DNA of 41,534 bases from IMG/VR virus record IMGVR_UViG_3300002334_000057, positions 1 through 41,534 of that record. One strand, 5' to 3'. Made by a program: the position numbers and the translations under genes. The DNA comes from a virus. Positions 285-40,293 of the stretch are shown piece after piece. The stretch's first letter is position 1. Every line of letters starts with the position of its first letter. The notes beneath the pieces were generated by a model. The model saw only the letters and a list, made by a program, of their open reading frames with translations. It was not told the origin of the DNA and did no database searches.

Positions 285-1778
285 ATGGCAATAGCACCCG
301 GCACATGTTTAACACGCGGCAACAATTCAGAATTCGCAAGTTTGGATGTAAGCAATTTTGGCCGAAGTATTATCGAATCGCCGAAACAAGTAGAGGTCAA
401 GATTCGAGAGGTTGAAATTCCGGTGATGCCTTGGCAGGGTGATTTACTTGAGGCCGAAGAAGAAATCGTTGCGGCTGTTGGGGGTATCGGTAGCGGCAAG
501 ACTTACGGCGGCGCGTTGTACACCGTTGATAAGATGGCATTCGAGGCTGATACCGGGACCATCGGCGCAGTACTCGCAAACACCTACGAGCAGTTGAGTC
601 AAGCAACACTTCCGAAGCTTTGGGAGGTGTTCGCTACGCTCGGGATGGAATACGGAACCGACTACGTACAGAATGAAGCGCCGCCGAGAAACTGGCGAGG
701 GTTCAAAAGTCGATTCAAGAAACATCACAACGTTGTCAGTGTTCGATGTTGGGGCCAGTTCATTACACGGTCACTTGAGAAGTACAACGCCATTCGCGGC
801 GTGGAACTTGGCTGGTTCTGGTGGGATGAAGCACGCGACAGTAAGGAAGAGGCGTTCAAGGTCGTTCTAGGACGCCTCAGATGCCCCAAGGCACACAAGA
901 GAGAGGGAAGGATAACAACATCGCCCAACGGGTTCGATTGGCTCTATGAGGCGTTTGTAGAGAACGCGGAAGTATTCGGTGAAGGCAAGAGACGCATGAT
1001 CCACATGCGCACGCGAGACAATATCTTTCTTGACGAAGAATTCTTTGAACTTCTTGAGAAATCATACGATCCGCTGTTTGCTAAACAGGAACTTGATGGT
1101 GAGTTTGTCGCGCTTACGGAGGGTCGCGTATACCGCAACTTCCAGCGGAAAATACATGTTCGCAAACGCAATTACAATCCAGAGCTTGACCTGTATGTAA
1201 CCGCTGACTGGAACCGTAACCCGATGTTGTGGGAAATTTGCCAGTTGATACCGGCAAACTCTTATGACAACAATGAAGACTTTGAAATCTTACACGTGAT
1301 TGATGAGATTGCGGTGAACGAAGCGGATACACCTAGCGTCTGCGAAGAACTAATAAGACGCTACCCGCCTTCGGAACACAAGGGACAAATGCGGTTTTGT
1401 GGTGACCCATCAGGACGCAACAAAGACACTCGCGGCAACTACACCGATTACAAACTTGTTCGTGAGAGCCTAGAGGCACAAGGCGCGTGGGCCGGTAGAT
1501 TCGTGAGGATGTGGAAGGCCGCACAACCGCCACAAATGAAACGCGTGGCTTCTATCAATGCTATACTTCTCAACACCCGTAAACAGGTGCGTCTTTACAT
1601 TGATCCGAAATGTAAAGAATTGCATCGTGACTTTGAACGATGCGTGTGGAAGCCGGGTACGAAATTGATGGACAAAGATACCGATCGATCACGTACGCAC
1701 GCCTCAGACGCGCTATCGTACTTGACACTCGTAATGTTCCCGCCTTTGACTAGCGGTAGCGGAACAATCACCATATGA
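285..1778 (+). CDS. terL: Terminase large subunit
   Basis: This is the packaging motor that pumps DNA into the prohead using ATP and cuts the concatemer. The ATPase half has an adenine-binding Q at residue 51, Walker A GGIGSGKT at 66-73, Walker B ending in DE at 181-182, and a TTSPNG coupling motif near 210. The nuclease half has the RNase H-fold acidic residues D308 (in TADWN), D374 (in GDPSG) and D475 (in HASDALSYL), as in Terminase_6C proteins. The length of 497 residues is normal. The start is uncertain: the ATG at 285 has no ribosome binding site and coincides with the predicted transcription start, while GTG/ATG at 422/425 (just before the Q motif, GAGG upstream) is an alternative. The stop codon runs into the first palindromic repeat. 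Confidence 0.95.
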   Translation: MAIAPGTCLTRGNNSEFASLDVSNFGRSIIESPKQVEVKIREVEIPVMPWQGDLLEAEEEIVAAVGGIGSGKTYGGALYTVDKMAFEADTGTIGAVLANTYEQLSQATLPKLWEVFATLGMEYGTDYVQNEAPPRNWRGFKSRFKKHHNVVSVRCWGQFITRSLEKYNAIRGVELGWFWWDEARDSKEEAFKVVLGRLRCPKAHKREGRITTSPNGFDWLYEAFVENAEVFGEGKRRMIHMRTRDNIFLDEEFFELLEKSYDPLFAKQELDGEFVALTEGRVYRNFQRKIHVRKRNYNPELDLYVTADWNRNPMLWEICQLIPANSYDNNEDFEILHVIDEIAVNEADTPSVCEELIRRYPPSEHKGQMRFCGDPSGRNKDTRGNYTDYKLVRESLEAQGAWAGRFVRMWKAAQPPQMKRVASINAILLNTRKQVRLYIDPKCKELHRDFERCVWKPGTKLMDKDTDRSRTHASDALSYLTLVMFPPLTSGSGTITI

Positions 1779-1794
1779 ATTGCAAGCCGCAATT
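1778..1794. repeat. 17-bp palindrome, copy 1 (terL/portal junction)
   Basis: AATTGCAAGCCGCAATT. The left end overlaps the terL TGA and the right end is 17 bases before the portal ATG. It belongs to the dispersed family with consensus AATTGCGRSYCGCAATT. Confidence 0.9.
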
Positions 1795-1811
1795 GAACAG
1801 GATATAGACAA

Positions 1812-3596
1812 ATGGCAAAGATCATTGCAGAGCAGCAGAACGTATCGGAAAATAAAAGTTCCAACCCTAGTTTTGACGCATACTTTATGGAAGGGTTGCT
1901 TGACCGTAAAAGGTTGTTCAACTTTCTTGATGTTTCGTACCGAGGCGGCAAAGCGTACAAAGAAGGTTGTGATGTTTACGGGTTGCCGCTTCTTATTCCG
2001 CACGAGTTGGAACTAAGCGGTTCTGGTGATTCGCCGCAAACTTTGAACGCAATTATTGCCAATACCGGCAATTCGGAAGATAACCGTTTCTTACGTCGTC
2101 TACGTACATCGTCGTATAAGAACTTCACCAAGCCGATTATTTCTAGGTTCGCGGCATACGTCACCCGTAACGATCCAAAGCGGTATGACACGGACGAGCT
2201 TGATCGGATCAAGATTAAACCGTTCATTGATGAAATGATTTTGGAGGGGTTGAAGCTTACAGAAGTATGGGTTGGGTACGATACCGTCCAGCTTGACGAA
2301 TTTGATGAAGATGGCAGTTTGATCTCTTATACGGAGAACGATATTGCTGTTCTTGATCCAGAACATCAAGGCAGGCCATACCCTGTAATGATCGATGCTA
2401 GAAACGTTGTTGATTTTGATGAGGACGAAAACGGTGTTATTCATCGTGTTGTATTTGAAGAGATTGAAGAATTCAAAGATTCATTCACTGCTAAAAAGTC
2501 AAAGGTTACAAACTACAAAGAGTGGACAACAACCGGTTGGAAAACTTATCGCAAGGTGAAATCAGGCGATAGTAAAAATTCGTTCAATCAAGAAAAAACT
2601 TCAACGATCACCAACACGCTAACCGGCTCATCTGTTCGAGTTGAGTTGATTAGTGAGGGTTCGCATTCATTCGAGGAAGTCCCTTTTAGACCGTTCCGGC
2701 CAAGGTTCCCTACCGAAGACCTTGCGGATTTGAACAGGCTTCTGTTCAACATCGAATCACTTGTTGATGAAGAGTTGTTTTCATCGACGTTCACCCAGAA
2801 AGTGATTACAGGCGCGAGCGCTGACGAAGTGAAGACGGCTACAACAGGGTCAGGTAATACGCTCGTTATCGAGAACCAAGATGCAACGCTTGATGTTATT
2901 GGTTCTATCGAGGGTCAAGCTGCAAGTCTCATGGACCGGTGTAGACATATCGTCGAGGATATTTACCGTCTAACAGCTATGGATAGCGGGCAAAAGAATG
3001 TTGCTGAAGCGGCAGAGAAAAAGAAACGAGACTTGGAAGCGCTTTACACCTTGCTAATTCAGGTGGCCAAAGACGCGGAGATTGTAGAGAACGAATTGCT
3101 TATCGGCATGGGTATCATCGAAGCGGGTGATACAAATCAGCTTTCTGTTTATGATCGCAAGTTTGATATTGCAAGTATCGCCGAAATGCTTGAAGAGCTT
3201 GAAAGTTTAGGACGTATGCCGTTCGTACCCGGATCGTTTAAACGTATGAAGGCGTTGCAGATTATGCGGAGGCTCGATACCCATAACGAGTTTAAAGACT
3301 ACAAAACTTCGGAAGACATGATTGACACTACAACCGAAATGGTGGAAGCCATTGAAGTACTGCTACGTATGGGCATAGTTACCCCGGAAGCTATCGCAAC
3401 AGCGCTAGGTTTGCCGACTACGCCTGAAATCATCAAGATGATTCAAGAGAAGATGAGCAGTCACCGCGAAGCCGATGATGTGTTTGGTGATGATGAAGCC
3501 GCGCAAGAGTTTGAGGATGATAAAAATGGCAAAGAAGATAGTGTTATCGAAGATGAAGGGTTTGAATCTAAAGGAAATCAAAGCGAAGATAAGTGA
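1812..3596 (+). CDS. Portal protein
   Basis: This is probably the dodecameric portal at the head vertex through which DNA enters and leaves and onto which terminase and connector dock. The call rests on position (directly after terL and before a MuF-type gene), on length (594 residues) and on architecture: an N-terminal KNFTKPIISRFAAYVTRNDPKR-type stretch with basic and aromatic residues near 100-120, a central beta-rich clip/wing region, a helical section with an AAEKKKRDLEALYTLL coiled segment near 400, and an acidic C-terminal tail. No single signature identifies the family; an SPP1 gp6-like or DUF4055-like portal is most likely. AGGA at 1799-1802 is 9 bases before the ATG. The last 71 bases overlap the next gene. 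Confidence 0.8.
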   Translation: MAKIIAEQQNVSENKSSNPSFDAYFMEGLLDRKRLFNFLDVSYRGGKAYKEGCDVYGLPLLIPHELELSGSGDSPQTLNAIIANTGNSEDNRFLRRLRTSSYKNFTKPIISRFAAYVTRNDPKRYDTDELDRIKIKPFIDEMILEGLKLTEVWVGYDTVQLDEFDEDGSLISYTENDIAVLDPEHQGRPYPVMIDARNVVDFDEDENGVIHRVVFEEIEEFKDSFTAKKSKVTNYKEWTTTGWKTYRKVKSGDSKNSFNQEKTSTITNTLTGSSVRVELISEGSHSFEEVPFRPFRPRFPTEDLADLNRLLFNIESLVDEELFSSTFTQKVITGASADEVKTATTGSGNTLVIENQDATLDVIGSIEGQAASLMDRCRHIVEDIYRLTAMDSGQKNVAEAAEKKKRDLEALYTLLIQVAKDAEIVENELLIGMGIIEAGDTNQLSVYDRKFDIASIAEMLEELESLGRMPFVPGSFKRMKALQIMRRLDTHNEFKDYKTSEDMIDTTTEMVEAIEVLLRMGIVTPEAIATALGLPTTPEIIKMIQEKMSSHREADDVFGDDEAAQEFEDDKNGKEDSVIEDEGFESKGNQSEDK

Positions 3597-3837: not shown

Positions 3838-4936
3838 AGAGATACTTGATAACCGCGCAAGGCTCATCAAGCACGAAAAAGAAATTGTTGCTGCTGCTGA
3901 TTTGTTCTTTGTTGGTCTTGAACGTGAGTGGAAAAAAGAAATCAATCGAACGATTCGTACGGCTTCTCCGAATCGAAGTGTTTCGGCAACACAAGAGGCA
4001 TTGCTAAGACGTAAAGTAATGATATTGCGAAGAGTGAACGCGATAACAGACAAAAAGGTTGCTGAAGTTCAGAAGTGGCTCGGTACGAGGGTTCAGCAGA
4101 TCGGACTAAGGGAATCGGTAAGGGTTCAATCGATCCTTGACACTCAGATATCTCGCAGTCTCGTTACGACAGGGCGAACCGTACCGAATGCGGGGTTTAC
4201 AAACGTCAAGTTTCAAGGGATTGGCAGGGGTTCGATACAGTCTGCTCTAGGTTCTGATCTTGTTGGGCACAAACAACTGAAGTCGTTCGAGCACATAAGC
4301 AAGACTGTAAAAGAGAAGATGAAGAAAGAGCTTGCGCAGACCATCGCAGACGGCAAAGGGCCGGACGATCTAATCAAGAAATGGACGCGGGGATCAGGAT
4401 CGGCACATCGCAAGTTTAAGAACGATGTACGGGCACTTGCTAGAACTTCCCTACATGCCGCTTCAAACGCCGCACACGAGGCCGTATACCGTCAGAACGC
4501 AGTGCTAATACCACGTGTCAGATGGGAAGCTACATTTGACAGCGTAACTTGCATGGTGTGCGGGGGATATCACGGCACAGAGTACGCGGTCAACAACGCA
4601 CCCGCGATACCCGCACATCTAAATTGTCGATGTATCTTGATTCCGATATTCGGTGACCCGTTGCTGAACAGTGATTTGAACAGCCTTGAAGCGTACGTTG
4701 ATAAAGGCGTGACGAGATACCGACAAGCCGATAGATCGTTTGATAACTGGTTGCGTGTAAGGGCGACCGAAGCACAGAAGAACGACTTCTTTCAAAGTAA
4801 ATTTAAACGAGCGGCATGGCAGGATAAAAAAGTAAAACTTGAACAGATGGTGACACCTACGAACCATGTACTGACAGATGGTCAGATATCAAGATTGATT
4901 ACCGATAGCAATTGGTTAAAAGCACACCCCATTTGA
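3803..4936 (+). CDS. Phage Mu F-like minor head protein (head morphogenesis)
   Basis: A 377-residue relative of Mu gpF/SPP1 gp7, minor capsid proteins that associate with the portal and are often packaged or ejected. The family signature is clear: a helical ARTSLHAASNAAHEAVY segment, then RWEATFDSVTCMVCGGYHG (C250, C253) and P-A-H-L-N-C-R-C (H272, C275, C277), a probable zinc site. The N-terminal 100 residues are charged and helical. The start ATG at 3803 lies inside the preceding small gene and lacks a good ribosome binding site, so translation may be coupled. The TGA stop opens palindrome copy 2. Confidence 0.9.
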   Translation: MPNKSKKLTLREEILDNRARLIKHEKEIVAAADLFFVGLEREWKKEINRTIRTASPNRSVSATQEALLRRKVMILRRVNAITDKKVAEVQKWLGTRVQQIGLRESVRVQSILDTQISRSLVTTGRTVPNAGFTNVKFQGIGRGSIQSALGSDLVGHKQLKSFEHISKTVKEKMKKELAQTIADGKGPDDLIKKWTRGSGSAHRKFKNDVRALARTSLHAASNAAHEAVYRQNAVLIPRVRWEATFDSVTCMVCGGYHGTEYAVNNAPAIPAHLNCRCILIPIFGDPLLNSDLNSLEAYVDKGVTRYRQADRSFDNWLRVRATEAQKNDFFQSKFKRAAWQDKKVKLEQMVTPTNHVLTDGQISRLITDSNWLKAHPI

Positions 4937-4952
4937 ATTGCGGCTCGCAATT
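4936..4952. repeat. 17-bp palindrome, copy 2 (MuF/connector junction)
   Basis: AATTGCGGCTCGCAATT, extended to 19 bp by G at 4935 and C at 4953. It overlaps the MuF TGA and lies 15 bases before the next ATG, immediately followed by that gene's AGGAG. Confidence 0.95.
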
Positions 4953-7748: not shown

Positions 7749-7765
7749 AATTGCGAGCCGCAATT
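7749..7765. repeat. 17-bp palindrome, copy 3 (before methyltransferase)
   Basis: AATTGCGAGCCGCAATT in the gap after the coat terminator, 14 bases before the methyltransferase ATG. Here the palindrome is not attached to an upstream stop codon, so its constant partner is the downstream start. Confidence 0.95.
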
Positions 7766-8431: not shown

Positions 8432-9094
8432 ATGACACACACGTACGACCATAAAGATCAGGTTGCTCTTATAGTGGCTTCAGGGCCGTCGTCGGGAATG
8501 ATTACGCAACAGTACCTTGAGAAGTTCCGAGAGCACTATAAGGAACAAGGTACGGTCATCATCGGAACAAACAACGTGTGGAACGTTGCGAGCGGGTCGC
8601 CATTGTTTGCGGATTACGGGGTGATCCTTGACCGCGACTTCTTGGCAAAGAACCAAGGGCCGATGAATACTTACCGTAAACTCAATCCGGCGTTCATTCC
8701 GGTGTTGGGATTCAAACCGCGCAACGATGTTTTAGGCAAGTGGCACCAAATAAACATCCTCACGGATCGAACGGCAGAGTTTGAACCGGCGTATGAATTC
8801 GGGCAGTATTTCCACGGGTTATCTTCCGGTGTTGCTGCTATACAATTCGCGCTACATTGCGGGGTTTCAAAGATACTTTTGATTGGGCATGATCTTTGTT
8901 GTCACGAAGGAAAGACACACGGAAACGGCAAGAGAAATAATATCGAGTTAGATAAGAATTACCCGCAAGGCCGTGATATGATGATTGGGTACATGTGGGT
9001 GTACGAACAGGCAAAGAGTCTAGGTGTAGACGTTCTGAATCTTTCACCTATTTCTGAATTAAACTTTATCCCAAAACCAGTAAACGCGGAGTAG
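8432..9094 (+). CDS. DUF115/MptE-like protein (possible glycosyltransferase-like)
   Basis: A 220-residue protein with a Rossmann-like start, VALIVASGPSSG (residues 11-22), and a second strand motif, KILLIGHDL (147-155). Together they resemble the DUF115 family, which includes MptE-type pterin pyrophosphokinases and Maf flagellin-glycosylation proteins. CCHEGKTHGNGKRNN follows and may form the active-site loop. GGAGGT at 8415-8420 precedes the ATG, 4 bases after the methyltransferase stop, so the two genes are coexpressed. The reaction cannot be told from the sequence. Nucleotide-sugar transfer or sugar-phosphate chemistry is the reasonable guess. Confidence 0.65.
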   Translation: MTHTYDHKDQVALIVASGPSSGMITQQYLEKFREHYKEQGTVIIGTNNVWNVASGSPLFADYGVILDRDFLAKNQGPMNTYRKLNPAFIPVLGFKPRNDVLGKWHQINILTDRTAEFEPAYEFGQYFHGLSSGVAAIQFALHCGVSKILLIGHDLCCHEGKTHGNGKRNNIELDKNYPQGRDMMIGYMWVYEQAKSLGVDVLNLSPISELNFIPKPVNAE

Positions 9095-12832: not shown

Positions 12833-12849
12833 AATTGCGAGTCGCAATT
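12833..12849. repeat. 17-bp palindrome, copy 4 (before tape measure)
   Basis: AATTGCGAGTCGCAATT in the gap between chaperone and tape measure, 17 bases before the tape measure ATG and just ahead of its GAGGGA. The centre is AGT instead of AGC. Confidence 0.95.
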
Positions 12850-17535: not shown

Positions 17536-18060
17536 ATGGCTTCGGTGGTTCCATATCTATTGACGTTCAAAGGGAATTGGGCGGGGTCTACTGAAGTCGC
17601 ACTTTCCTTTGAAAACGGTTCACACGAATCTGTTTCGGGTGGGGGTCTTCCCGCGTTTATCACTCCGCAACAAAACCCGGTTGGTGTGTACTATTGGAAC
17701 ATCAAAGGTTTCTTCGCGGAAACAGAGAGCCAAGTACACGACAATGCGGCACAGACACAAGCTCTTGTTGTAAGTGAATTGGGTTTAGCTGACACAATAA
17801 CGGAACATTTGGGTTTCTTCCCGCCGATTGAAAAGCGGTTAGCACGCGGTGGTGTTACGCTTTGGTCACCACATGATAACGCCGGTTCACTGAAGCTCTA
17901 TCGAGGCCCAACAGGTGACTACGCGGGCGGGAACGCGGTAACCCTTTCGAGCGAATGTTGGTTGAAAAAATACAACGCGACTACAGGCGGAAGAAACGGG
18001 ATTGCAACAATTGATTACCAATTTGTTTCAAGTAGAAACCCCGTCGATTACATTGTCTGA
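17536..18060 (+). CDS. Minor tail protein (hypothetical)
   Basis: A 174-residue protein one base after the tape measure stop, with GGGAGAA at 17524-17530 as ribosome binding site. In this position siphophages carry distal-tail or tape-measure-associated minor proteins. It is rich in Gly, aromatic residues and predicted strands (VVPYLLTFKGNWAG, NPVGVYYWNIKGFF, GSLKLYRGPTGDYAGG). No known motif. The TGA leads into palindrome copy 5. Confidence 0.7.
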   Translation: MASVVPYLLTFKGNWAGSTEVALSFENGSHESVSGGGLPAFITPQQNPVGVYYWNIKGFFAETESQVHDNAAQTQALVVSELGLADTITEHLGFFPPIEKRLARGGVTLWSPHDNAGSLKLYRGPTGDYAGGNAVTLSSECWLKKYNATTGGRNGIATIDYQFVSSRNPVDYIV

Positions 18061-18076
18061 ATTGCGACTCGCAATT
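18060..18076. repeat. 17-bp palindrome, copy 5 (before tail hub gene)
   Basis: AATTGCGACTCGCAATT overlaps the upstream TGA and is 16 bases before the hub ATG, just ahead of its GAGG. Confidence 0.95.
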
Positions 18077-27049: not shown

Positions 27050-28073
27050 AAATAATCCGTACCGTTCTTTAGCTCGGCGAGAATACCCAAAAGATTCAAC
27101 GATTGTTCTCGTTGATTCTCAACACGCCGCATACCGTGCGTTCCATACGCGAGACCTGCGAACGCATGACGGTATCCCAACGTCTGTACTTCACGGTGTG
27201 CTTGAAATGCTAGGCGGCACGCTCGCACTCGCAAACACGACGCGGTTTCTTCTTTGCTGGGACGGGCAACATGGTAACGATTACCGACGTGCCATCTACT
27301 CGCAATACAAGGCTCGACATTTCCGAGATAGGAATGACGAAGAACAAGCAAGTATGATTGCAACCAGCGAGGCAATTGATGTTGCAATTGAAGGACTTGG
27401 TTCGCTCGGTATGCCGCAACTGCAATTTAACCGTATTGACGGTGATGATTTGCTCGGTGTGTGTGCGAACCGTCTAGCGAAGATTGACAGAATCAAACGG
27501 GTTCTGATTCTGTCGGATGATAAAGATTATCTGCAATTAGTCACGAACAAGATTCATGTTTACCGTGCGGGTCAAGACGATTACGTGGACCCGGAAGTGT
27601 TCTTTGAGCAACACGGGTTCGAGCCTAGTTTGTATGTGGATTACAAAGCACTCGTTGGCGAAGGGAAGACGGGGGATAATATTCCCGGCGTTCAGGGTGT
27701 GGGCGATAAGACGGCTTGTACGTTGATTCAGAAGTACGGCGGTATCGAGAACGTGATTAAAGCATGTGTTGCGAATAGCAAAGAGCCCGGTGCTCGGATG
27801 TTTGAGAAGAGAGTTGCACAGAGCCAACAGGCGGCGCGTGATTCTTACAAACTCTCAAAGATATTCAGAAACGTGTTTGACATAACCAACAGTGAGGCTT
27901 TGATTGGTCCGACCGGGTTTGATGTTTTCAAGACAAAAGAGCAAATGAGAATTGCATTGCGTCAAAAATCTATTAGCCTGAGAGATATCGTGAAGTTCCG
28001 AGGAAAGTATGAATTCGGTACATCGCTTTCGACTGACAGAATGGTTGATGTTTTCGGCTACAAAGTAATCTGA
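27042..28073 (+). CDS. 5'-3' exonuclease (PIN/FEN-like)
   Basis: A 343-residue flap endonuclease/exonuclease of the DNA polymerase I N-terminal and T5 D15 type. VLVDSQHAAYRAF gives the first metal Asp, YKARH follows, then DGDDLLGVCA and LSDDKDYLQLV supply the acidic cluster, and GEGKTGDNIPGVQGVGDKTA is the helix-3-turn-helix DNA-binding motif. It should remove primers and trim flaps beside the phage polymerase. GAGG at 27029-27032 supports ATG 27042 over the in-frame ATG 27027. The TGA opens palindrome copy 7. Confidence 0.92.
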   Translation: MHENNPYRSLARREYPKDSTIVLVDSQHAAYRAFHTRDLRTHDGIPTSVLHGVLEMLGGTLALANTTRFLLCWDGQHGNDYRRAIYSQYKARHFRDRNDEEQASMIATSEAIDVAIEGLGSLGMPQLQFNRIDGDDLLGVCANRLAKIDRIKRVLILSDDKDYLQLVTNKIHVYRAGQDDYVDPEVFFEQHGFEPSLYVDYKALVGEGKTGDNIPGVQGVGDKTACTLIQKYGGIENVIKACVANSKEPGARMFEKRVAQSQQAARDSYKLSKIFRNVFDITNSEALIGPTGFDVFKTKEQMRIALRQKSISLRDIVKFRGKYEFGTSLSTDRMVDVFGYKVI

Positions 28074-28089
28074 ATTGCGGCTCGCAATT
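28073..28089. repeat. 17-bp palindrome, copy 7 (exonuclease/polymerase junction)
   Basis: AATTGCGGCTCGCAATT overlaps the exonuclease TGA and is 16 bases before the polymerase ATG. It is the same orientation as copy 2. Confidence 0.95.
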
Positions 28090-28105: not shown

Positions 28106-31100
28106 ATGAAGAACTGCGATTTTACGCATTTGCATTTGCATACGGACTATTCTTTTCTTGACGGTGTTGGTACTGCTGAGGAATACGCTCACTTGGCGTC
28201 TAAGCACGGTCAGCGTGCAATAGCATGTACAGATCACGGCGGGCTTCATGGCCTTCCTGCGATGCGTAGGGCCGCTACAGCACATGGTCTGAAGTTCATA
28301 CCCGGTTGCGAACTATACATCAACGATGACCGCGACAATACGAAAGAGAAAAGACGAGAAGCGAGAGCGGACAGTAAGAAAATCGACCCGGAATTTGGAG
28401 ATCATCATCTAGTTGTTCTTGCCATCGATAATATTGGCTGGCACAACCTGCTAAAGATCAACGACGATTCAATCCGAAAAGGTTTCTACTACAAACCAAG
28501 AACCACAAACGATATGGTGCTTGAGCACAACGAAGGGTTGATCGCAACAACGACTTGTTTGGGTTCCGAATTCTCCAAACTTGGCAGGGCCGGAAAACTC
28601 AAAGAGCTTCGCGTCTTAATGGGTCGGTACAAAGACGCGTTCGGCGATAGGTTCTTTGCAGAGCTTCACGTCAACAAGATTGACGAACAAAGAGAGTGGA
28701 ATACCATTCTCATCGAAGAAGCTAAGAAGCTAGATATCCCGTTCATCATTGCTTGCGACACTCACTACGCGTGTTCGCACGACAAACCAAGACAGGATGA
28801 AATGATCGGACTCGCGCGGCATCAACGCCTAGACGATCCGAAATTCTGGAGCCTGACAACAGAAGAACTTTGGTTCCAAACACCGAGAGATATTCTCAGC
28901 GCCGCGAGGGAATGGGATAGCGGTATTCCAAAAGATGTTTTCATCAAAGGGTTCTTGAATACCGTTGCGATCGCAGAGAGATCGAACGTAGAAATATACG
29001 ACGATACGACTCTGAAACCACCAAAGTACTTAGACGCGAACGGCAACAATATAGACGATGCTTTCGGGCACCTGAAAACGATTGCGGTGAAAGGTCTGAA
29101 GAAACTAATGGGCGGTACTTTGCCGCAAGAATACAAAGACCGAATGATTAGAGAATTGCGGGTCATCCGTGATTTGGGAATGTCAGAGTTTTATCTGGTA
29201 ACGATGGACGTTGTGCGAGAGTGTAAGAAGCGTGGAATCTTCGTGTGGACTCGCGGGTCAGGTTGCGGGTCGATTATTGCAGCCGCTATCGGTATCACTC
29301 ACATTGACCCGATCCGATTCGGTTTGCTGTTTGAGAGATTCGTTGACCCGAGCCGACCAAACGCGCCGGACTTTGATTTGGATATTGACGCGTCACGGCG
29401 CGGCGAGGTTGTTGATTGGCTTTTGAATAAATACGGGGGTCCGAACGGTGAACGTATCGCCCGTATTATTTCGCTAGGAACGTTCCGGTTGAAGTCTGCC
29501 GTACAAGAAGGTTGCTGGTGTCACGGTCACGAAAGAAAAGACCTGTACAGAATATCCGATTTGGTTGACAAGATAGACCCGTCACACGAGAAGGCAATTG
29601 CGGCTTGCAATTCAGACGAGCGAGAGAAACTAATCGGTGACGCGTACGATGCGATTGTAAATATCGCGGGTGACCGTGAAGCAAAGTTCTTGACCGAGAA
29701 CGAAACAACAATCAAGAACGCAATGGTGCTCACCGGTCGTGTGAAGAACAAAGGGTTGCACGCGGCGGGTTATGTCATCGCACCGGGTCCGATGGTTGAG
29801 TATATGCCGATTGACCGAGGCAAAGACCCGGTAACCGGTGAGCCGATCATTGTCACGGCGTGGGGCGAGGGTCAGGCATCACAGGACATTGCAGATACCG
29901 GGTTGTTGAAGCTCGACCTTCTCGCGCTCGACACAATCAGTGTCGTGTCTGAATGTGTGAAGCTTGTATACAAGCGGCACGGTAAAAACCTATGGGAAGA
30001 AATCGACACGTGGAACATGGATTATTCCAACCCGAAAGTGATGAAAGAATTTCACACCGGGAACGGGTTCGGCCTTCATCAACTCAACACGGACTCACAA
30101 CAGCTTGCCGATTTCGTAGGACGGTTGAAGCCGACAGATGTACGCGGTCTGATTGCAGCTATCGCCATGTACCGACCGGGACCGATGCAGTTCTGCGACA
30201 CGTTCATTGCGAGAAGTCACGGCAGAGAAGAAGCTGAATCGATACACCCTATCTTTGACGAGATCACGGCAGAGACGTACGGAATTATGGTGTATCAGGA
30301 ACAAATTATGTTTGTTCTCAACAAGCTCGGCGGTATCGAACTGCGCGAGGCGTACATGATAATCAAGGCGATTTCAAAGAAGAAACTGAAAGAGATTCAG
30401 AAGTCTAAACAGCAATTCGTCACACACGCAATAGATAACCACAACATGAGCGAGGAACAGGCTACCGGTATCTTTGAGCACATTGAGAAGTTTGCAGGTT
30501 ACGGCTTCAACAAAGCTCACTCGGCGTCCTACGGAATACTTTCTTTCGTGACCGCTTACCTTCGCTCGCATTACACAATCGAATTCTGGTACGCGTGGCT
30601 CAACAGAACCATCAACAAAACTTCAATCAAGAAGAAAGGGGTTCAGGGGGAACGCAAAATCGGTTTGATGATGGGTCAGGCCGAGCTTGCCGGGCAAACA
30701 TTGATTGGGCCGGTCGCGTGTATGTCACTCGACACATGGCAGATCACAAAGAGTGACAGACTCATTGCACCGTTGTCTATCCTTAAAGGTGTTGGGAACA
30801 CTACAGCGACCGCCCTGCGCGATGCGTACAAAGAACATCGATTTGCTGACATTTGGGAATTCTTGGAATGGTGCGAACAGAACAAGAAACTTGCGAACGC
30901 TGGCGCTTTGAAATCAATGGCGAAAGGTAACGCACTCAAACTGTTCAAGGTCACCGTGCCGGAATCGCTCGCAATCGTTACAGCATACTGCGAAGCAAAG
31001 CCGACAAAAGCGAAGGGTTTGAAATGGGAACAAACAAAGCGGCAATACGACGACGATGAAATTGAGTGGGACGAAGATCAATCGGTATTGCTGAAGTACG

Positions 31101-32728: not shown

Positions 32729-34128
32729 ACGATTCAGAACAAGTATTTGTTGCCGGGTTAATTCAAAGACCCGATAGAATGGTTACGGTTTTCAGTTTCG
32801 ATTTAGGATGGTTTGAATCTGTTGAATGTAAAGCCATATTTATTGCGGCTCGCAATCATTACCGCGAAGCTGCATCAAGGGGCAACATTCGATTTGCTTC
32901 CGGTACGCAAATCGTAAAAGGTTCTCACCGCGTTCTTATATCCAACTGTAAACGTGGAACAAAGAAGTATGATTCGAGAGTAACGAAAGCTCAGGCAATC
33001 GGCGCTTTCGTTGATGAAGTAAACACCGATTGGGACTTGGTGAATGATTCCGATTGGGACGAAGCAAGAGATGATATTGGTACGTCCTACCGCGATCGTA
33101 TGGCTTACGACTCTTTGAGAGAGATCGTTGATATATATCAGAAAAAAGGCAGTAGCGAAGGTCTTTGTCAACGTGTTAACCAACTTGCCTCAGATTTGAA
33201 TCCGTTGGCTACAGAAGATGCAGGCGCGTACATAAAAGACGATGCCGTTAACGCTCTCTCCGAAGCACGTGCGGCGGCAAAAAGTAAAGAGTTTCAGGGT
33301 ATCCCTACACCATACAAACAACTTAATAGGCTTATCGATTGTGGCGGCGGTCGTAAAGACCGTTTGTGGTTGGTTGCCGGTTATACCGGCTCTGGTAAAT
33401 CAACGATGGCTTTGAATCTGATTCATAAAGCGATGATGCGGGGTAAAGGGGTTGCTTATCTTTGCGTTGAGCAGACCCGTAAAGAATTGCGGAATATGTT
33501 CATCGCTCGACACACCCAAGAGATTCGACCGGGTTTAGGGGTTGAACTTGCAAAGATCGTTAGCGGTAATATGAATAAAGAAGAATGGGGTGTGTTGAAA
33601 AAAACAGTTGACGATCTTGATACAAATACCGACTACGGGCATGTTCATTTTCGCCATGTGCGGAGAGGTACGAGTATCGAATCTGTTGTTGGTATGCTTG
33701 AAGTTTTGAATCGCCAACATGCGATTGATGTTGTTGTTTTGGATCATACAGAATTGTTTGGGTCGGAACGTGGCAAAAGAGCACCAAAGGCGGAAGAGCT
33801 TTCGTATGTGGTCCAAGGAGCCAAAGACCTATCGATCACGTTCAACAATCGAAAAGGCGTGTGGGTGATCCTGTGCCATCAAATCAACCGCTCTGGTTAC
33901 GATCGATCCTTAACGCGTGGTCATTATCTGTTGTCTGATTTGAGCGGAACAAGCGAAGCCGAGCGTTCTTCAGATTTGGTTATGTTCTTGTGGCGCAGTG
34001 AGGAATTAAAAGACCTTTCTGAAATCCGGGTTGGGATAGCGAAAAACAGACAAGGTGAACCGCTTGAAAAGGGTTTTGAAGTTATGGAAGATTTCGCCAC
34101 ATGTTCAATTTTTCCGATTGGTAATTGA
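32725..34128 (+). CDS. DnaB-like replicative helicase
   Basis: A 467-residue ring helicase with a RecA-type motor. Walker A is GYTGSGKST (219-227); VAYLCVEQ is the H1a-like strand with its catalytic Glu; D340 in VVVLDHTELF is the Walker B Asp (DnaB usually has DYLQL); VILCHQINR is the H3 segment; SDLSGTSEAERSSDLVMFLWR is the H4 segment. The N-terminal 200 residues replace the usual DnaB N-domain and are divergent. It starts with GTG in a GTGA overlap. Together with the primase and polymerase it makes the phage replisome. A weak palindrome copy lies at 32842. Confidence 0.9.
   Translation: MNDSEQVFVAGLIQRPDRMVTVFSFDLGWFESVECKAIFIAARNHYREAASRGNIRFASGTQIVKGSHRVLISNCKRGTKKYDSRVTKAQAIGAFVDEVNTDWDLVNDSDWDEARDDIGTSYRDRMAYDSLREIVDIYQKKGSSEGLCQRVNQLASDLNPLATEDAGAYIKDDAVNALSEARAAAKSKEFQGIPTPYKQLNRLIDCGGGRKDRLWLVAGYTGSGKSTMALNLIHKAMMRGKGVAYLCVEQTRKELRNMFIARHTQEIRPGLGVELAKIVSGNMNKEEWGVLKKTVDDLDTNTDYGHVHFRHVRRGTSIESVVGMLEVLNRQHAIDVVVLDHTELFGSERGKRAPKAEELSYVVQGAKDLSITFNNRKGVWVILCHQINRSGYDRSLTRGHYLLSDLSGTSEAERSSDLVMFLWRSEELKDLSEIRVGIAKNRQGEPLEKGFEVMEDFATCSIFPIGN
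32842..32856. repeat. Truncated palindrome inside helicase gene
   Basis: ATTGCGGCTCGCAAT, perfect over the inner 15 bases, encoding IAARN. The outermost A/T pair of the 17-mer is lost. Confidence 0.55.
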
Positions 34129-35252: not shown

Positions 35253-35340
35253 AATAGATGGTGTGATGGGTTGCATCGCTCGATGTAGACGGTAAGATAG
35301 ACGTGTAACGAATGGGCAACACAAACAAAGGGACCAAACG
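35238..35340 (+). promoter_or_regulatory. Promoter/leader repeat, copy 1
   Basis: An A-rich block (from 35238, overlapping the primase end), TTGCAT at 35271-35276, 16 bases, TAAGAT at 35293-35298, then a 5' leader ending in AAGGGA 7 bases before the ATG at 35341. The same arrangement recurs at 36348 and 37801. Confidence 0.88.
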
Positions 35341-36294
35341 ATGAACATCACAAAAACAGATTTCGACACGTTCGCAGATGAGATTTTCGCTAACGGTGTA
35401 AAAACACTCGGTACGCTTTGCTGGTTCTCGATTTCCGATGTACGTATCGGTGCAGATGCCGTGAATAGGATGGCGAAAAACAGCGGGCTTGATTCTAATC
35501 TCAAGCGGAAACCCGCAAGTGACGCGTTCCGGGTTGCAACTACTGAATGTTTGAAGAATTCCGGCGTAGTGACTTCGCATTCTGAACGTTTGATTATTCG
35601 CTCTGTGAAGGATAACGCATCAACAATCATCAAAGCTATTGTTGTTGAAACCGTCAACGCGGCTGGCGAAACGCTCGATCATTACGTTGCGGGTCGAATT
35701 CGGTTTGATCGTGAAAAAGAACAGATCACCGAACACAATGAAGGTGTAACCGGGAGTCATTGCAAAATGGTTCACGAACTCAGCTTGCAGGTCGAATCTG
35801 ACTACAAAGATTTTCGCAATCGTCTTACCGCTGGCGAGCTTCGCCGCTGGATGATGGGGCACTTGAAAGAAATGTGTTACCTGAAACTCCTACCGGGCGG
35901 CGGCGCTTACTTTGTTCCGAGTTTCAACAACGACATTCTTAGAAACCTGAAGGAATTCGTTTCTGACCTTTCGGAAGCAACGAATACAAAACACACGTTC
36001 GGCGTTCTTCCCGTGCCCGATGTTTCCGATCAGCGTGAACTCGTTACACGTTCGTTCGTTGAGTCATTCGAAGATGAGACCAAAGAGCTTTTAGGCGATA
36101 TTGCGGATATGCTTGCCAAGGGTGAAGAGATCACCGCACGGGCAGCCAAGACACGACTTGCACGAATCCGTGAAACGATTGGCCGTGCTGCTGAGTACCG
36201 CACACATCTGAATATCGCAAACGCTGATATTGACGAACGCCTTGTTATGTTGGAAGTTCAAGCCGTCGAAATCATGGACCGTAAAACCGCCTGA
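35341..36294 (+). CDS. Unknown protein, first of the RavA/ViaA-like trio
   Basis: A 317-residue protein behind its own promoter. It has a mixed N-terminal half (LCWFSISDVRIGADAVNRMA; KRKPASDAFRVATTECL; then several strands including HYVAGRIRFDREKEQI) and a helical C-terminal half with many Glu, Arg and Ala (LLGDIADMLAKGEEITARAAK; ETIGRAAEYRTHL). I do not recognise a named domain with certainty; a DUF6744-like phage family is possible. Sharing a duplicated leader with the AAA+ and VWA genes suggests it is their substrate, adaptor or partner. The TGA opens palindrome copy 8 and a terminator follows. Confidence 0.7.
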   Translation: MNITKTDFDTFADEIFANGVKTLGTLCWFSISDVRIGADAVNRMAKNSGLDSNLKRKPASDAFRVATTECLKNSGVVTSHSERLIIRSVKDNASTIIKAIVVETVNAAGETLDHYVAGRIRFDREKEQITEHNEGVTGSHCKMVHELSLQVESDYKDFRNRLTAGELRRWMMGHLKEMCYLKLLPGGGAYFVPSFNNDILRNLKEFVSDLSEATNTKHTFGVLPVPDVSDQRELVTRSFVESFEDETKELLGDIADMLAKGEEITARAAKTRLARIRETIGRAAEYRTHLNIANADIDERLVMLEVQAVEIMDRKTA

Positions 36295-36310
36295 ATTGCA
36301 AGCCGCAATT
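36294..36310. repeat. 17-bp palindrome, copy 8 (before terminator)
   Basis: AATTGCAAGCCGCAATT, identical to copy 1. It overlaps the TGA of the unknown gene but is followed by a terminator and a new promoter instead of a start codon. Confidence 0.92.
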
Positions 36311-36345
36311 ACCCTCATGCCCGGTAAATCGGGTATGAGGGTTTT
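36311..36345 (+). terminator. Terminator between unknown gene and RavA-like gene
   Basis: ACCCTCATGCCCG at 36311-36323 pairs with CGGGTATGAGGGT at 36330-36342 (one G-T pair) across GTAAAT, then a short T tail. The loop and stem resemble those at 37766. Confidence 0.85.
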
Positions 36346-36347
36346 AC

Positions 36348-36450
36348 GAAAAAAATATCTGAAATAGATGATGCGACCCCTTGCACGAACCGATGTAGAC
36401 AGTAAGATAGACGTGTAGCAAATGGGCAACACAAACAAAAGGGACCAACA
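36348..36450 (+). promoter_or_regulatory. Promoter/leader repeat, copy 2
   Basis: A-rich block from 36348, TTGCAC at 36381-36386, 16 bases, TAAGAT at 36403-36408, leader with AAAAGGGAC before the ATG at 36451. It is the same length as copy 1 and most positions are identical. Confidence 0.9.
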
Positions 36451-37749
36451 ATGACAAGCACAACACGCAAACCGAGAACCACAAAGAGAACCGTCAAGAA
36501 GTCACCCGCAAAAAAGGGGGCGAGAAAGTCAGCGGTTTTCGATGTGGTTTCCAAAATCGAAGCCATCCGCGACCGGGCCGCTAGAATGTATGTCGGTCGT
36601 GATGAGGTCGCGGAAGCCATCGCGCTCGGGATAGTGTCAGAGAGAAACCTATTGCTTATAGGTGTGCCCGGCACCGCGAAAACCGCAATCGTTAAAGAAA
36701 TGGTTTCTTCATTCTGCCCGGATGACGGTGATATATTTTCGGTCCTACTTACAAAATTCACGACACCGAAAGAAGTCTTTGGTCCGATTGATATCTTGAA
36801 GCTGAAAGAGGGTAAAAACATCGTGCTTACTGACGGATATCTTCCGTCTGCAAAGGTCGCGGTACTTGATGAAGTCTTTAAAGGTTCTTCCGCTATTCTC
36901 AATTCACTTCTTACTATCGTCAACGAAGGAATCTTTAAAGCCAACGGTACGACTTGGGAAAAATGCCCGTTACGTATGACCGTGGGTATATCTAACGAAT
37001 ACCCGGAAGACCCCACACTTCTTGCGGCATTCTATGATCGTTTCCCGATCAAGTTAAAAGTTGATTCGCTTGATGGTTCGTCGTTCCGAAACATGCTTGA
37101 TTCTGTTTGTGATAAACGTATCGAAAATGCGAAGCCGGTTCAAAGTTTGACCGATGCCGACTTTGACGAAATCAACGCGCTGCGAAATGCGGTAACCGTA
37201 TCATCGAAAATGCTCGACACAATCAGCGAAATTAGAGAACAAGCACGGGTAAAAGGTGTTGAAATTTCCGATCGTCGTTGGGTGCAAGTTATCAATATTC
37301 TCAAGGCTCATGCGGTGATGAATCGAACAACGGAAGTAACCGTTTCAGATTTGAAATGCCTTTCATACGTGGTTTGGAATACCGACGATGACCGCTCAAT
37401 TATCAATCAGATTCTTCCGCAATTCGCCGAACCTATAGAGCGTGAATTGATGATGATTTTCGATGAAATTAACCACGCGAGACACAGAGTACTTTCGGCG
37501 GCGATCGGTGCTAACGGTGAATTCGATGGTTCGGCGGCATCTACTGAAGCCGTACAGGCTCGTCAGGCTATTCAGGGTCAACGCAACTGTCTTGAGGAAT
37601 TGTCTGATTACACGGATGATTCTGATATCGAATCAGTTGAAGCAATTGAAGAAATGCGGGTGTATGTTGAAACAGTGCTAAGTGTCGTGACCCGTGTTGG
37701 TACTGGTAGCGCCAGCGTCGAAGAACTCAAGAAGACGATTCAGAGCTAA
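36451..37749 (+). CDS. RavA-like MoxR-family AAA+ ATPase
   Basis: A 432-residue AAA+ protein. After a basic tail (about 1-27), Walker A is GVPGTAKT (71-78), KFTTPKEVFGPIDI follows, then DGYLPSAKVAVLDE with D140/E141 as Walker B, AILNSLLTIVNE, sensor I in VGISNEYPED, and YDRFPIKL. This matches E. coli RavA almost block by block (GYLPxAxxxxLDE, AILNxLLTxxNE), more closely than CobS. Such ATPases form hexamers that remodel proteins together with a VWA partner, here the next gene. It has its own promoter and is bounded by terminators, so it is made as a single-gene message. Confidence 0.88.
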   Translation: MTSTTRKPRTTKRTVKKSPAKKGARKSAVFDVVSKIEAIRDRAARMYVGRDEVAEAIALGIVSERNLLLIGVPGTAKTAIVKEMVSSFCPDDGDIFSVLLTKFTTPKEVFGPIDILKLKEGKNIVLTDGYLPSAKVAVLDEVFKGSSAILNSLLTIVNEGIFKANGTTWEKCPLRMTVGISNEYPEDPTLLAAFYDRFPIKLKVDSLDGSSFRNMLDSVCDKRIENAKPVQSLTDADFDEINALRNAVTVSSKMLDTISEIREQARVKGVEISDRRWVQVINILKAHAVMNRTTEVTVSDLKCLSYVVWNTDDDRSIINQILPQFAEPIERELMMIFDEINHARHRVLSAAIGANGEFDGSAASTEAVQARQAIQGQRNCLEELSDYTDDSDIESVEAIEEMRVYVETVLSVVTRVGTGSASVEELKKTIQS

Positions 37750-37765
37750 GAAATTGTTTGTCCCG

Positions 37766-37799
37766 CCTTGCACTCGGTAAAACGGGTGTGAGGTTTTTT
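37766..37799 (+). terminator. Terminator after RavA-like gene
   Basis: CCTTGCACTCG at 37766-37776 pairs with CGGGTGTGAGG at 37783-37793 (three G-T pairs) across GTAAAA, then six T. It is related in sequence to the 36311 terminator, so the duplicated unit includes terminator plus promoter. Confidence 0.82.
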
Positions 37800-37800
37800 A

Positions 37801-37899
37801 GAAAAAAAGATTGAAAATAGATGACGCAACCCTTGCACTGACCGATGTACACGGTAAGATAGACGTGTAACGAATGGGTAACAAACAAAGGGACTAGAA
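37801..37899 (+). promoter_or_regulatory. Promoter/leader repeat, copy 3
   Basis: A-rich block from 37801, TTGCAC at 37833-37838, 16 bases, TAAGAT at 37855-37860, leader ending in AAAGGGAC before the ATG at 37900. It is slightly shorter than copies 1 and 2. Confidence 0.9.
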
Positions 37900-39372
37900 A
37901 TGCAAAAGCAAATCAATCAAGCAATCAGTTTTGCACGTTACGACGGAGCAGCCTACAAGCGTATTTCAGATGTTCCTGTTTTTTTTGATGGCATATCAAA
38001 GATTGAACTGACGAACTCTCCGATGAAAGTTGGTCGAATCGCTTTCGATATGTTTAACATGCTCAACAAAGGTTTACCGAAAACTTCCGGTTTCGGTAAT
38101 GAGTTTCAGCAACAGGTTTGCACGCGGCTACTTGAACTTCCGAAGTACAAAGAACTCCACAGTATGACTGTCGGCGATGAGGTTAGCTCGGCAATGGCGG
38201 CTTCGGTTCTTTTGGGCGATATCATCGAGAGTATCCCTGAAGACCTAAAAGAAGATATCACGGATGCAGACGAAGCAACCGGTGATTACGAAAACGCTGA
38301 GGGTTTTTATGACGCGCTGCAAGACGACGAATCCGCAACGCAGGATGAAATCGACGATGCCGCGAAAGATTCGATTGAAAAAGAATCGGCGATGAAAAAG
38401 GCAAATCAGAAGTTAGCTAACAACGTCCGCGACTCGGGCAAGATGATACAACAAGGTATCGATTCCGCTGTTGATGTCGCTTCGGATCAAACACGTACCG
38501 TGAAAGCCGTTTCTGAAATGTTCGGAACCGAAAGCTCTAAAGTCGGCTCGGGTAATCTTGCCGAAAAAATGGAGATGGCTAAACGTCTCGCCGGTCGCGG
38601 TAACGAGTTTCAGAAGTTCGTTGATTTGCTCGGGCGAATGGTTCGTGAATCCAACAAAGCCGAAATGAGCAAGACCACACATAACGCTGGTGCGATTGTT
38701 GATATCACGCTTGGCGATGATTTGTCTTCCGCAATGGATATGGACGTGCTCGAATTTATTGACCCGGATTTACACCTTCAAAGCCTAACCCGTATTGCCG
38801 ACGGTTCGCTCATGGAATACGAATGCGAAGCTGAAGTACCAGAATCAAAAGGCGATATTATCGTCCTTCTTGATGAGTCTGGTTCGATGAGGGGTCAACG
38901 CGAAGCGGAAGCCAAAGCGTTTACACTGGCAGCTGTTCAAACCGCTATGCGTCAGGGCCGCACAGTACGCGTGATGCTCTTTCAGACAAAAATAACCGGT
39001 GAGTACACCTTTGAGCCTAAAGGTTCTCAGAACACGAACAACGCCGCTCAACTGAGCAAGCTAAACGAACTCGGGCGGCGCTCAACTGGTGGCGGTACAG
39101 ACTTCACACAACCGCTGACGCATCTTATCGACACGGTTACCAAATCTGAAAAAGACAACGCAGATGTAATCGTTGTGACAGATGGTCACGCGAATGTTTC
39201 ACAAACCGTTGTTGATATGGTCAACGAGTTGCGCGTTGCTCGCGGGATGCATTTTTATTCGATGTGTATCGGGTCAAGTCATACCTGCTCGCTTGAAAAG
39301 TTTTCTGACAAGGTTTGGAGACTTGGCAATCTGAGCGATGCCAGTTCCGAACTGTTCACCTGTATTGTTTGA
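37900..39372 (+). CDS. ViaA-like VWA-domain protein
   Basis: A 490-residue partner of the AAA+ protein, close to ViaA in size and layout: a helical and acidic N-terminal two thirds with long charged helices (about 130-260), a GDDLSSAMDMDVLEFIDPDL segment (272-291) typical of the family, and a C-terminal VWA domain. The metal site (MIDAS) is complete: D325-x-S327-x-S329 in DESGSM, T400-D401 in GGGTDFTQPL, and D428 in VTDGHA. KVWRLGNLSD near the end matches the VWRF region of ViaA. CoxE/CobT-like VWA proteins are the alternative. The gene has its own promoter and a GGGAC ribosome binding site. Confidence 0.87.
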   Translation: MQKQINQAISFARYDGAAYKRISDVPVFFDGISKIELTNSPMKVGRIAFDMFNMLNKGLPKTSGFGNEFQQQVCTRLLELPKYKELHSMTVGDEVSSAMAASVLLGDIIESIPEDLKEDITDADEATGDYENAEGFYDALQDDESATQDEIDDAAKDSIEKESAMKKANQKLANNVRDSGKMIQQGIDSAVDVASDQTRTVKAVSEMFGTESSKVGSGNLAEKMEMAKRLAGRGNEFQKFVDLLGRMVRESNKAEMSKTTHNAGAIVDITLGDDLSSAMDMDVLEFIDPDLHLQSLTRIADGSLMEYECEAEVPESKGDIIVLLDESGSMRGQREAEAKAFTLAAVQTAMRQGRTVRVMLFQTKITGEYTFEPKGSQNTNNAAQLSKLNELGRRSTGGGTDFTQPLTHLIDTVTKSEKDNADVIVVTDGHANVSQTVVDMVNELRVARGMHFYSMCIGSSHTCSLEKFSDKVWRLGNLSDASSELFTCIV

Positions 39373-39384
39373 GAAAGTGGAAAG

Positions 39385-39663
39385 ATGAGAAACAAGGAAA
39401 TAAAAGAACGTAATCGAATTGATGATTGTGTTTATAGAAATGAGAAAATATCAAAGGCCGAAGAATGCTTACGGCATGAAACAATCGATTGGAAAGAGTA
39501 CTCACGACGTGTTGCGATTTCCAAAACGATGAAGGGAAGAAAGAGGACGAAGATAGACCGTAAGAAAATTTCAGACGCGATGAAAGGTGTTGTGAAAACG
39601 GAAGACCACAAACGCAAAATATCGGAATCGTTAAAGGGAAATAGAAACGCCAAATCCAAATAA
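39385..39663 (+). CDS. NUMOD3-only protein
   Basis: A 92-residue, Lys/Arg-rich protein. Its second half has repeated NUMOD3-type motifs: VAISKTMKGRKRTKI, KKISDAMKG and HKRKISESLKGNRN. NUMOD3 modules are DNA-binding parts of GIY-YIG and HNH homing endonucleases, but no catalytic domain (GIY, HNH) is present. It could be a remnant of a homing endonuclease or a reused DNA-binding protein. It begins 12 bases after the VWA stop, with GGAAAG close to the ATG. Confidence 0.7.
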   Translation: MRNKEIKERNRIDDCVYRNEKISKAEECLRHETIDWKEYSRRVAISKTMKGRKRTKIDRKKISDAMKGVVKTEDHKRKISESLKGNRNAKSK

Positions 39664-39675
39664 AGGAAACGGCAA

Positions 39676-40242
39676 ATGATATTGGTTGAAAACAAAACAG
39701 TTGATTTCTCGGACATAGTGCAGAACGAACTTCGGATGATTTTTAGATCAGCCGCAAACAATGCGTGGATAAAATCAGGAGGTCTTGACGCGAACGATTT
39801 AGCAAACGGGTTCATTGCATGGATGTTGCAGCGCGGCTACATTAATCGGTTCGATCCTAAGATTGGTTCTCTTGTAAATTTCTTGTGGGGTTTTGCGAAC
39901 AAGTACAACATGAGAGTTTGCAGGCAATGCCGATCAAAGTGCGAGGGTATGGAAAAATACAAAGCGAAGGTGAACAAGACGCCTGTTTTGACCGATGATC
40001 CGATTGAGGATTTTGATACAGCCGAACACGCGAGGTATCACATGAAAAGGGTTTTGAATGCGTGTAGTTCAAAAAAGCGTAGAATTTTACAGGCTTTAAT
40101 CGATTGCGACATGGATAGGATTTTGGTATCCGAACATCTTGGGATAACGACTAGGGCGGTTTCTGAAGGATACCTAGCGTCAAAACGTGATTTGAAAAAA
40201 ATGTTTTCGGAAGATGAAAATCTTTTGGCTTACAGTCATTGA
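39676..40242 (+). CDS. Sigma factor-like protein
   Basis: A 188-residue protein resembling a small sigma70-family factor. The first part, DANDLANGFIAWMLQRGYINRF then DPKIGSLVNFLWGFANKYNMR, follows sigma region 2 (the DLxQxxFxxxxxxxxxFDPxxGxxxxYL pattern). The end, KKRRILQALIDCDMDRILVSEHLGITTRAVSEGYLASKRDLKK, in part, is a region 4 helix-turn-helix. CRQCRSKC in between is unusual. It may redirect host RNA polymerase to late or atypical phage promoters. AAAGGAAA lies before the ATG. The TGA is inside the -35 box of the next promoter. Confidence 0.68.
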   Translation: MILVENKTVDFSDIVQNELRMIFRSAANNAWIKSGGLDANDLANGFIAWMLQRGYINRFDPKIGSLVNFLWGFANKYNMRVCRQCRSKCEGMEKYKAKVNKTPVLTDDPIEDFDTAEHARYHMKRVLNACSSKKRRILQALIDCDMDRILVSEHLGITTRAVSEGYLASKRDLKKMFSEDENLLAYSH

Positions 40243-40266
40243 CACCCGGATTGTTCCGTGTAGGAT
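40239..40266 (+). promoter_or_regulatory. Sigma70-like promoter for the ParB-like gene
   Basis: TTGACA at 40239-40244, 16 bases, TAGGAT at 40261-40266. The -35 box overlaps the stop codon of the sigma-like gene. The predicted start near 40273 puts palindrome copy 9 at about +5 to +21. Confidence 0.75.
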
Positions 40267-40276
40267 GAAATGTGCG

Positions 40277-40293
40277 AATTGCGAGCCGCAATT
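40277..40293. repeat. 17-bp palindrome, copy 9 (operator-like, before ParB-like gene)
   Basis: AATTGCGAGCCGCAATT, identical to copy 3, directly downstream of the promoter's -10 box and 57 bases before the start codon. Its position is that of an autoregulatory operator. Confidence 0.92.

Follow-up and report, generated by a model that had tools for sequence, protein, structure and literature searches.

Dispersed palindromic repeats have been described in the cluster O mycobacteriophages Corndog and Firecracker. They were reported in 2015 in a paper that leaves their function open, calls a transcriptional role unlikely and notes the parB-like Corndog gene product gp90, its authors considering ParB an unlikely contributor to genome stability (PMC4351075). 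In plasmid RK2, the ParB relative KorB slides up to 1.5 kb from its operator and is held at promoters by KorA, according to passages of a second report (PMC11790492). Here we analyse a dispersed 17-bp palindrome in a 41,534-nucleotide stretch of DNA from an uncultured phage (IMG/VR record IMGVR_UViG_3300002334_000057, positions 1 to 41,534; hereafter the window), and we propose, with a probability of about one in two, that it is the recognition and loading site of an orphan ParB-like protein which the phage itself encodes from position 40345. The sites, their spacing, the family of the protein, the lack of a ParA match, the site at the predicted promoter and the different site beside a homologous protein in a relative are seen in the sequence itself; the DNA binding, nucleotide use, sliding and coating or organising role that we ascribe to this protein are inferred.

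The likeness to the cluster O repeats had already been drawn in an earlier sequence-only reading of the window, and it is apt: in both cases two 7-bp arms flank a 3-bp centre with dyad symmetry, and dozens of copies occur genome-wide, some of them inside genes and in both orientations. It also goes further, because cluster O phages, too, encode an orphan ParB-like protein, without a ParA match in the same genome. Firecracker carries 34 exact copies of TGTTCGG-N3-CCGAACA (39 at ≤2 mismatches), and its ParB-like gp94, of which Corndog gp90 is presumably the counterpart, scores above the ParB_N cut-off. The two systems differ in the arm, TGTTCGG having no copy at ≤2 mismatches in the map of the window phage, and in spacing, which is uneven in Firecracker. 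By analogy, KorB offers the nearest worked example of a ParB-like clamp. The resemblance would extend to a ParB-family protein, short sites both proximal and distal to promoters, and sliding from the site; the differences lie in the plasmid setting, the KorA partner, the operator (OB) sequence and the fact that repression is proven for KorB and not for the window phage (PMC11790492).

A clean family of sites, evenly spaced on a closed map

In the window, the repeat AATTGCGNNNCGCAATT has 12 copies at ≤3 mismatches (seven exact, four with one mismatch and one with two). Shuffled versions of the window hold 3.43 matches on average and none of 100 shuffles reaches 12, which rules out a chance origin. 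These are the 12 copies that the sequence-only reading had picked out, and its coordinates are right for all but the last interior variant, which starts at 32841 and not at 32842.

An exact-pattern search of viral contigs returned two contigs from the same sample with many copies (68,318 and 61,624 bp, each with 19 copies at ≤2 mismatches) and six others with a single copy each. Where compared, the two contigs are 100% identical to the window except for their own last 14 and 51 bases, and the last 772 bases of the window are the first 772 of the longer contig. Through these overlaps the pieces close into an 81,154-bp map, which suggests a circular or circularly permuted genome and does not by itself prove the form in the virion. 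The search of the rest of the genome that had been called for thus yields 24 copies, of which 12 are exact, 11 have one mismatch and one has two; there are none at three mismatches and 25 at four, and the family of 24 is therefore clean. Counted as palindromes with 6-bp arms, the family has 19 copies in the map, whereas no such family went above three copies when four genomes were each shuffled 10 times.

The sites recur about every 3.4 kb round the map. The gaps have a coefficient of variation (CV) of 0.365, with a minimum of 587 bp and a maximum of 5,850 bp, an evenness that was matched by none of 200,000 uniform placements and by none of 50,000 random picks of 24 from 101 gene starts. The 17 copies classed as junction copies, taken alone, give a CV of 0.55 (P 0.006). 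The farthest sampled point lies 2,914 bp from any site, and 79% of the genome lies within 1.5 kb of one. Whole-genome spacing is thus a stronger regularity than placement at gene starts, which is common but secondary. The sites in the window, with the ParB-like gene and its predicted promoter, are as follows.

1778 to 1794, plus strand: site with one mismatch, overlapping the terminase stop codon, before the portal gene
4936 to 4952, minus strand: exact site, overlapping the stop codon of the head morphogenesis gene, before connector gene Ad1
7749 to 7765, plus strand: exact site before the methyltransferase gene
12833 to 12849, plus strand: exact site before the tape measure gene
13948 to 13964, plus strand: site with one mismatch, within the tape measure gene
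18060 to 18076, minus strand: exact site before a tail-region gene of 1073 amino acids
23241 to 23257, minus strand: exact site, 23 bases before the ATG at 23281
28073 to 28089, minus strand: exact site before the DnaE-type polymerase gene
29596 to 29612, minus strand: site with one mismatch, within the polymerase gene
32841 to 32857, minus strand: site with two mismatches, within the DnaB-like helicase gene
36294 to 36310, plus strand: site with one mismatch, overlapping the stop codon of the DUF6744 gene, upstream of the MoxR gene
40239 to 40266, plus strand: predicted sigma70-like promoter TTGACA-16-TAGGAT upstream of the ParB-like gene
40277 to 40293, plus strand: exact site, starting 11 bp past the end of the promoter -10 element and lying 51 bases before the ParB-like gene
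40345 to 41534, plus strand: ParB-like gene, 397 amino acids, whose stop codon ends at 41538 of the extended map, 4 bases past the window

Judged against a greedy mechanical gene set, 12 of the 24 sites have their centres in intergenic DNA, which makes up 5.3% of the bases, and 10 lie within an open reading frame (ORF). Two of these 10 are exact (12833 and 23241), both near the end of the ORF, while the five copies well inside genes (13948, 29596, 32841, 43478 and 57922) are all imperfect. Exact copies are accordingly rarer inside ORFs than outside (2/10 versus 10/14, Fisher P 0.036) and absent from the five sites that we ourselves chose as clearly interior (0/5 versus 12/19, P 0.037), both differences being weak. 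The earlier view of the repeat as a marker of gene starts holds only in part: six copies lie 14–17 bases before an ATG (1778, 4936, 7749, 12833, 18060 and 28073), but 10 copies lie within ORFs. As it had also reported, five copies (1778, 4936, 18060, 28073 and 36294) overlap the TGA that ends the upstream ORF, the first A of the site belonging also to that codon; the copy at 12833 likewise has a TGA, yet no listed ORF ends there. The name 'tail hub' that it gave to the gene at 18093 finds no supporting PHROGs match.

The cluster K start-associated sequence, a 13-bp sequence at the ribosome binding site, shares with our repeat its placement near starts. The parallel, which had been drawn earlier, is weak, as the window site is a dyad, lies at least 14 bases from start codons or inside genes, and is often not at starts at all. 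A similar motif has been described in cluster EF. Closer in placement are the 18-bp inverted repeats of the cluster EG phage Hyperion, which lie 14–22 bp before start codons according to passages of PMC7302621; they differ in being mostly at one genome end.

Promoters were predicted with a simple consensus on the plus strand. In five of the 18 distinct predicted promoters, including that of the ParB-like gene itself with its exact site at 40277 just downstream, a site falls between -5 and +40 relative to the end of the -10 element. Randomly chosen junction sites would give 0.92 such cases (P 0.00025), and intergenic positions 1.14 (P 0.0023). This enrichment, together with the excess of sites between genes, would fit a reading in which the sites are operators, bound by a ParB-like or other helix-turn-helix (HTH) regulator that silences or tunes transcription from promoters and across junctions throughout the genome, in the manner of the KorB operators or of the stoperators of cluster A phages. 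We consider this possible but doubtful. The other 19 sites lie away from any promoter predicted in this way; orientation is not tied to transcription, the window having six plus and six minus sites although its annotated genes run one way; and operators would need neither even spacing nor interior sites. The stoperators of the cluster A phage L5 are likewise dispersed, several of them in short junctions, but they are asymmetric and oriented with transcription, whereas the orientation of our sites is mixed over the whole map (14 plus, 10 minus), as had been noticed for the window copies.

When the copies are oriented by their centres they give the consensus AATTGCRAGYCGCAATT, with arms of AATTGCG round a 3-bp centre and with positions 3–6 and 11–16 invariant in all 24 copies. 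The three central bases had been thought to vary, but in the oriented copies they are AGC (19) or AGT (3) in 22 of 24, the others being AAC and CGC; the centre columns are biased, since it was the centre that set the orientation. Position 7 played no part in orienting and still varies on one side only, with 17 G, 6 A and 1 C where position 11 has C in all 24 copies; beyond the 17 bp conservation is at most about 0.6 bit per column. Among the 12 imperfect copies, eight break an arm pair, four leave a G-U pair and none is compensated, and such one-sided, uncompensated changes argue for a DNA rather than an RNA element. That the sites act as RNA hairpins, either as terminators or in translational control ahead of the ribosome binding site, is the least probable of the readings we weighed and is very improbable indeed: the stems could fold as RNA (-4 to -10 kcal/mol) and the six copies ahead of start codons would be suitably placed, but eight of 12 imperfect copies disrupt the stem, only one of the 24 copies has a TTTT in the 8 bases that come after it, unlike the hairpin and T-run of an intrinsic terminator, and the interior and promoter copies would have no such use.

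The ParB-like protein and a relative with a different site

The protein encoded at 40345 comprises an acidic N-terminus, a ParB-CTPase fold with recognisable Boxes I, II and III, and a putative HTH region. Its match to Pfam ParB_N (E 6e-5, 23.4 bits) falls below the curated cut-off of 26.3, and among PDB chains it matches Spo0J (E 2e-6) and Noc (E 7e-6); a two-sequence profile matches Noc at E 7e-11. Foldseek with the predicted model ranks Noc and ParB best (E 2e-7 and 4e-7); a sulfiredoxin comes at rank 15 and KorB from rank 19 (E 5e-4). Box II has the sequence GAHR, and Box III DNLVRE. At 40345–40560 the protein opens with a long acidic stretch that holds a tandem DDEL repeat.

No ParA match (PF13614) was found in five records standing for three phages, one of them a fragment, while all 14 controls matched, and a ParA-binding motif was not found in the three proteins examined. 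These results bear on the idea of a phage-plasmid whose partition system uses the sites as a dispersed centromere. A ParB-family protein and a circular or circularly permuted map are in keeping with such a system, but with neither a ParA match nor a ParA-binding motif in that material, and with sites that do not cluster but occur all over the genome, we regard it as very unlikely.

A scan with a polymerase profile gave at least 80 loci from at least 600 stretches. It led to one informative relative, contig IMGVR_UViG_3300033067_001029 (hereafter G009; 55,457 bp, 68% GC), whose polymerase is 43% identical and which is syntenic with the window phage, with 29 ortholog pairs in the part compared. 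G009 encodes a homolog of the ParB-like protein (28% identity over 309 residues, E 6e-24). The consensus, for which a search of relatives had been proposed, is absent from it (no match at ≤3 mismatches in 55,457 bp), and a different palindrome takes its place: TTGTTTC-N5-GAAACAA, with 15 copies at ≤2 mismatches and none at three (one four-mismatch match, at 9357, was left out). These sites are also evenly spaced (CV 0.40, P 0.0003). In the map of the window phage the G009 motif occurs at chance level, with three matches at ≤2 mismatches against 0–3 in 25 shuffles, and among the 80 loci listed of at least 119 found in a scan for it, only G009 has it recurrently. A different site beside a homologous ParB is as expected if site and protein co-diverge. 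Conservation of copies at orthologous junctions, on the other hand, was not borne out: with a limit of 150 bp, four junctions are shared versus 2.5 expected (P 0.19), the MoxR junction, with sites at upstream distances of 157 and 103 bp, falling outside the limit.

The half-site of bacterial parS is TGTTTC, like that of the G009 palindrome. With bacterial ParB-parS and Noc, the phage systems thus share the protein fold and, in G009, the half-site; they differ in that the window phage has no ParA match, that sites lie all round the genome, and that the centre is of 3 or 5 bp, asymmetric in the window phage.

Taken together, the dyad sites, the orphan ParB-family protein, the site at its own predicted promoter, the different site that accompanies the homolog in G009 and the even spacing are best explained by a ParB-like clamp. 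A dimer of the protein would bind the dyad via its putative HTH; bound nucleotide, probably cytidine triphosphate (CTP), would then close the dimer, which would slide off as a clamp. With a site about every 3.4 kb, no part of the ~81-kb genome would be more than 2.9 kb away from a loading point. Such spacing would let the protein coat or organise all of the genome instead of working at a single centromere. A site just downstream of a promoter, as at the protein's own gene, may double as an operator.

Points against the proposed clamp, and the comparison phages

Several observations weigh against the loading-site reading. The window site has an asymmetric centre, unlike canonical parS. The predicted model of the protein is poor (mean predicted local distance difference test score, pLDDT, of 54), and the Foldseek matches therefore count as supporting evidence only. 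Homology to Noc and Spo0J extends through the HTH region, but the model is of low confidence, and Pfam HTH_ParB gave no match for the window protein and a weak one for the G009 homolog. In our reading of the alignment, the protein has N for the catalytic Q and A for the E of GERR. Alanine variants of Q52 and E93 in Myxococcus xanthus ParB are hydrolysis-defective according to passages of PMC9178275, and the defect of Q52A also appears in those of PMC12462528; given these apparent replacements, CTP hydrolysis may be lost in the window protein, or another nucleotide may be used. In G009, the nearest site lies 456 bp before parB and neither of two predicted promoters adjoins a site. The pairing of ParB and site is seen in only one distant relative, so that co-divergence rests on two lineages.

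Phages outside these two lineages supply further points against the reading. The Firecracker sites have a CV of 0.93 (P 0.46). HannahD has ParB_N and HTH_ParB matches over cut-off and no comparable dispersed family in 30 of its 46 kb; Adler has a 32% homolog of Firecracker gp94, again with no comparable family; and Hyperion has its 18-bp palindromes and no ParB_N match in its genome. Adler carries an annotated ParA, and our prediction of dispersed palindromes in it failed, the largest family with 6-bp arms being four GC-only copies compared with 2–3 in shuffles.

Among 98 loci scanned, mostly polymerase relatives, palindrome families with 6-bp arms and at least three copies occurred in four, namely three pieces of G009 and one locus (L053) whose copies lie within about 1 kb; spread-out families were thus confined to G009. 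ParB_N matched in four of 50 polymerase-related records (50 of 87 loci), and those other than G009 had no dispersed palindrome family in the stretches scanned. Scans with the polymerase, ParB and terminase pairs gave no third member having both parts. The 78 terminase-related loci (L336–L413) held only tandem or AT-rich families and a four-copy family with 5-bp arms in a piece of G009; an AT-rich family of four copies in L366 appeared to be a chance occurrence. In 32 records from these loci, a ParB profile matched G009 strongly and one other record (G062) weakly. The first ~27 kb of the capsid relatives Morgana, Hiyaa and PSonyx held no palindrome family above two copies, and a megablast search with 20 kb of the window found no near isolate.

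Elsewhere, ParB-like proteins are found without dispersed palindromes, and such palindromes without the proteins. This would fit a further reading, in which the sites belong to some other DNA transaction (replication, recombination, packaging or a host factor) and are bound by something else, the nearby ParB-like gene being incidental; the phage does encode RecA, RuvC-like and SbcC/D-like proteins. We consider this unlikely. A host factor is improbable because bacterial genomes (257 Gb) hold no family of sites, only 73 stretches with a single match each, two of the genomes having two, compared with about 120 expected by chance. No alternative conserved HTH protein was found, the scan covering a minority (10) of the proteins of the upstream half.

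Neighbouring genes and what the sites may mean

The two genomes show several further features. Positions 36451–39372 of the window encode a MoxR-type AAA ATPase (Pfam bpMoxR, E 2e-56) and, after it, a protein with a von Willebrand factor A (vWA) domain; both have homologs in G009, and the MoxR protein matched in only 23 of 50,697 phage records. A strong hairpin with a T-run after it, noticed by eye at 36311–36350 directly behind the 36294 site, probably acts as a terminator ahead of the MoxR gene. G009 has a second conserved sequence, ATTCCGGGAAATATC, which adjoins the site upstream of the MoxR gene (L117, near 19063) and the site before the parB region (L118, near 3617). A 54-bp direct repeat (93% identical with small gaps; 35281–35334 and 37843–37894) lies just upstream of the DUF6744 and vWA genes, and glycosyltransferase-like genes lie within the head and tail gene blocks (8432–9094, matching a sialyltransferase-like PHROG, and 21318–22616, of family 2).

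Downstream of the ParB-like gene, L026:1047–1766 and L026:5838–6890 appear to encode Rad50/SbcC-like halves, both with homologs in G009. The N-terminal half is a separate AAA_15/AAA_23 gene ending in CPLCGG; the ORF for the C-terminal half was called by eye and has no Pfam match.

More tentatively than for the loading site itself, we suggest a ParA-free form of viral genome coating, in which regular loading sites would feed a ParB-like sliding clamp onto the entire chromosome and so organise or insulate it, with different lineages, cluster O included, using different sites. The split Rad50/SMC-like protein encoded nearby could perhaps be its partner. Coating could serve organisation, protection or silencing.

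Many ParB-fold proteins, those of phages included, are uncharacterised according to passages of PMC12704722, and in the literature searched, partly as abstracts or passages, we found no report pairing a phage ParB with dispersed or evenly spaced sites. The present case links the unexplained dyad repeats of cluster O with such proteins, and the even spacing adds a quantitative hint against promoter control as the sole explanation. The window phage and G009 supply matched pairs of protein and site that can be tested in vitro, and the arrangement in G009 offers a testable explanation for similar mycobacteriophage repeats. If the loading-site reading is true, some phages use ParB clamps genome-wide without partition.

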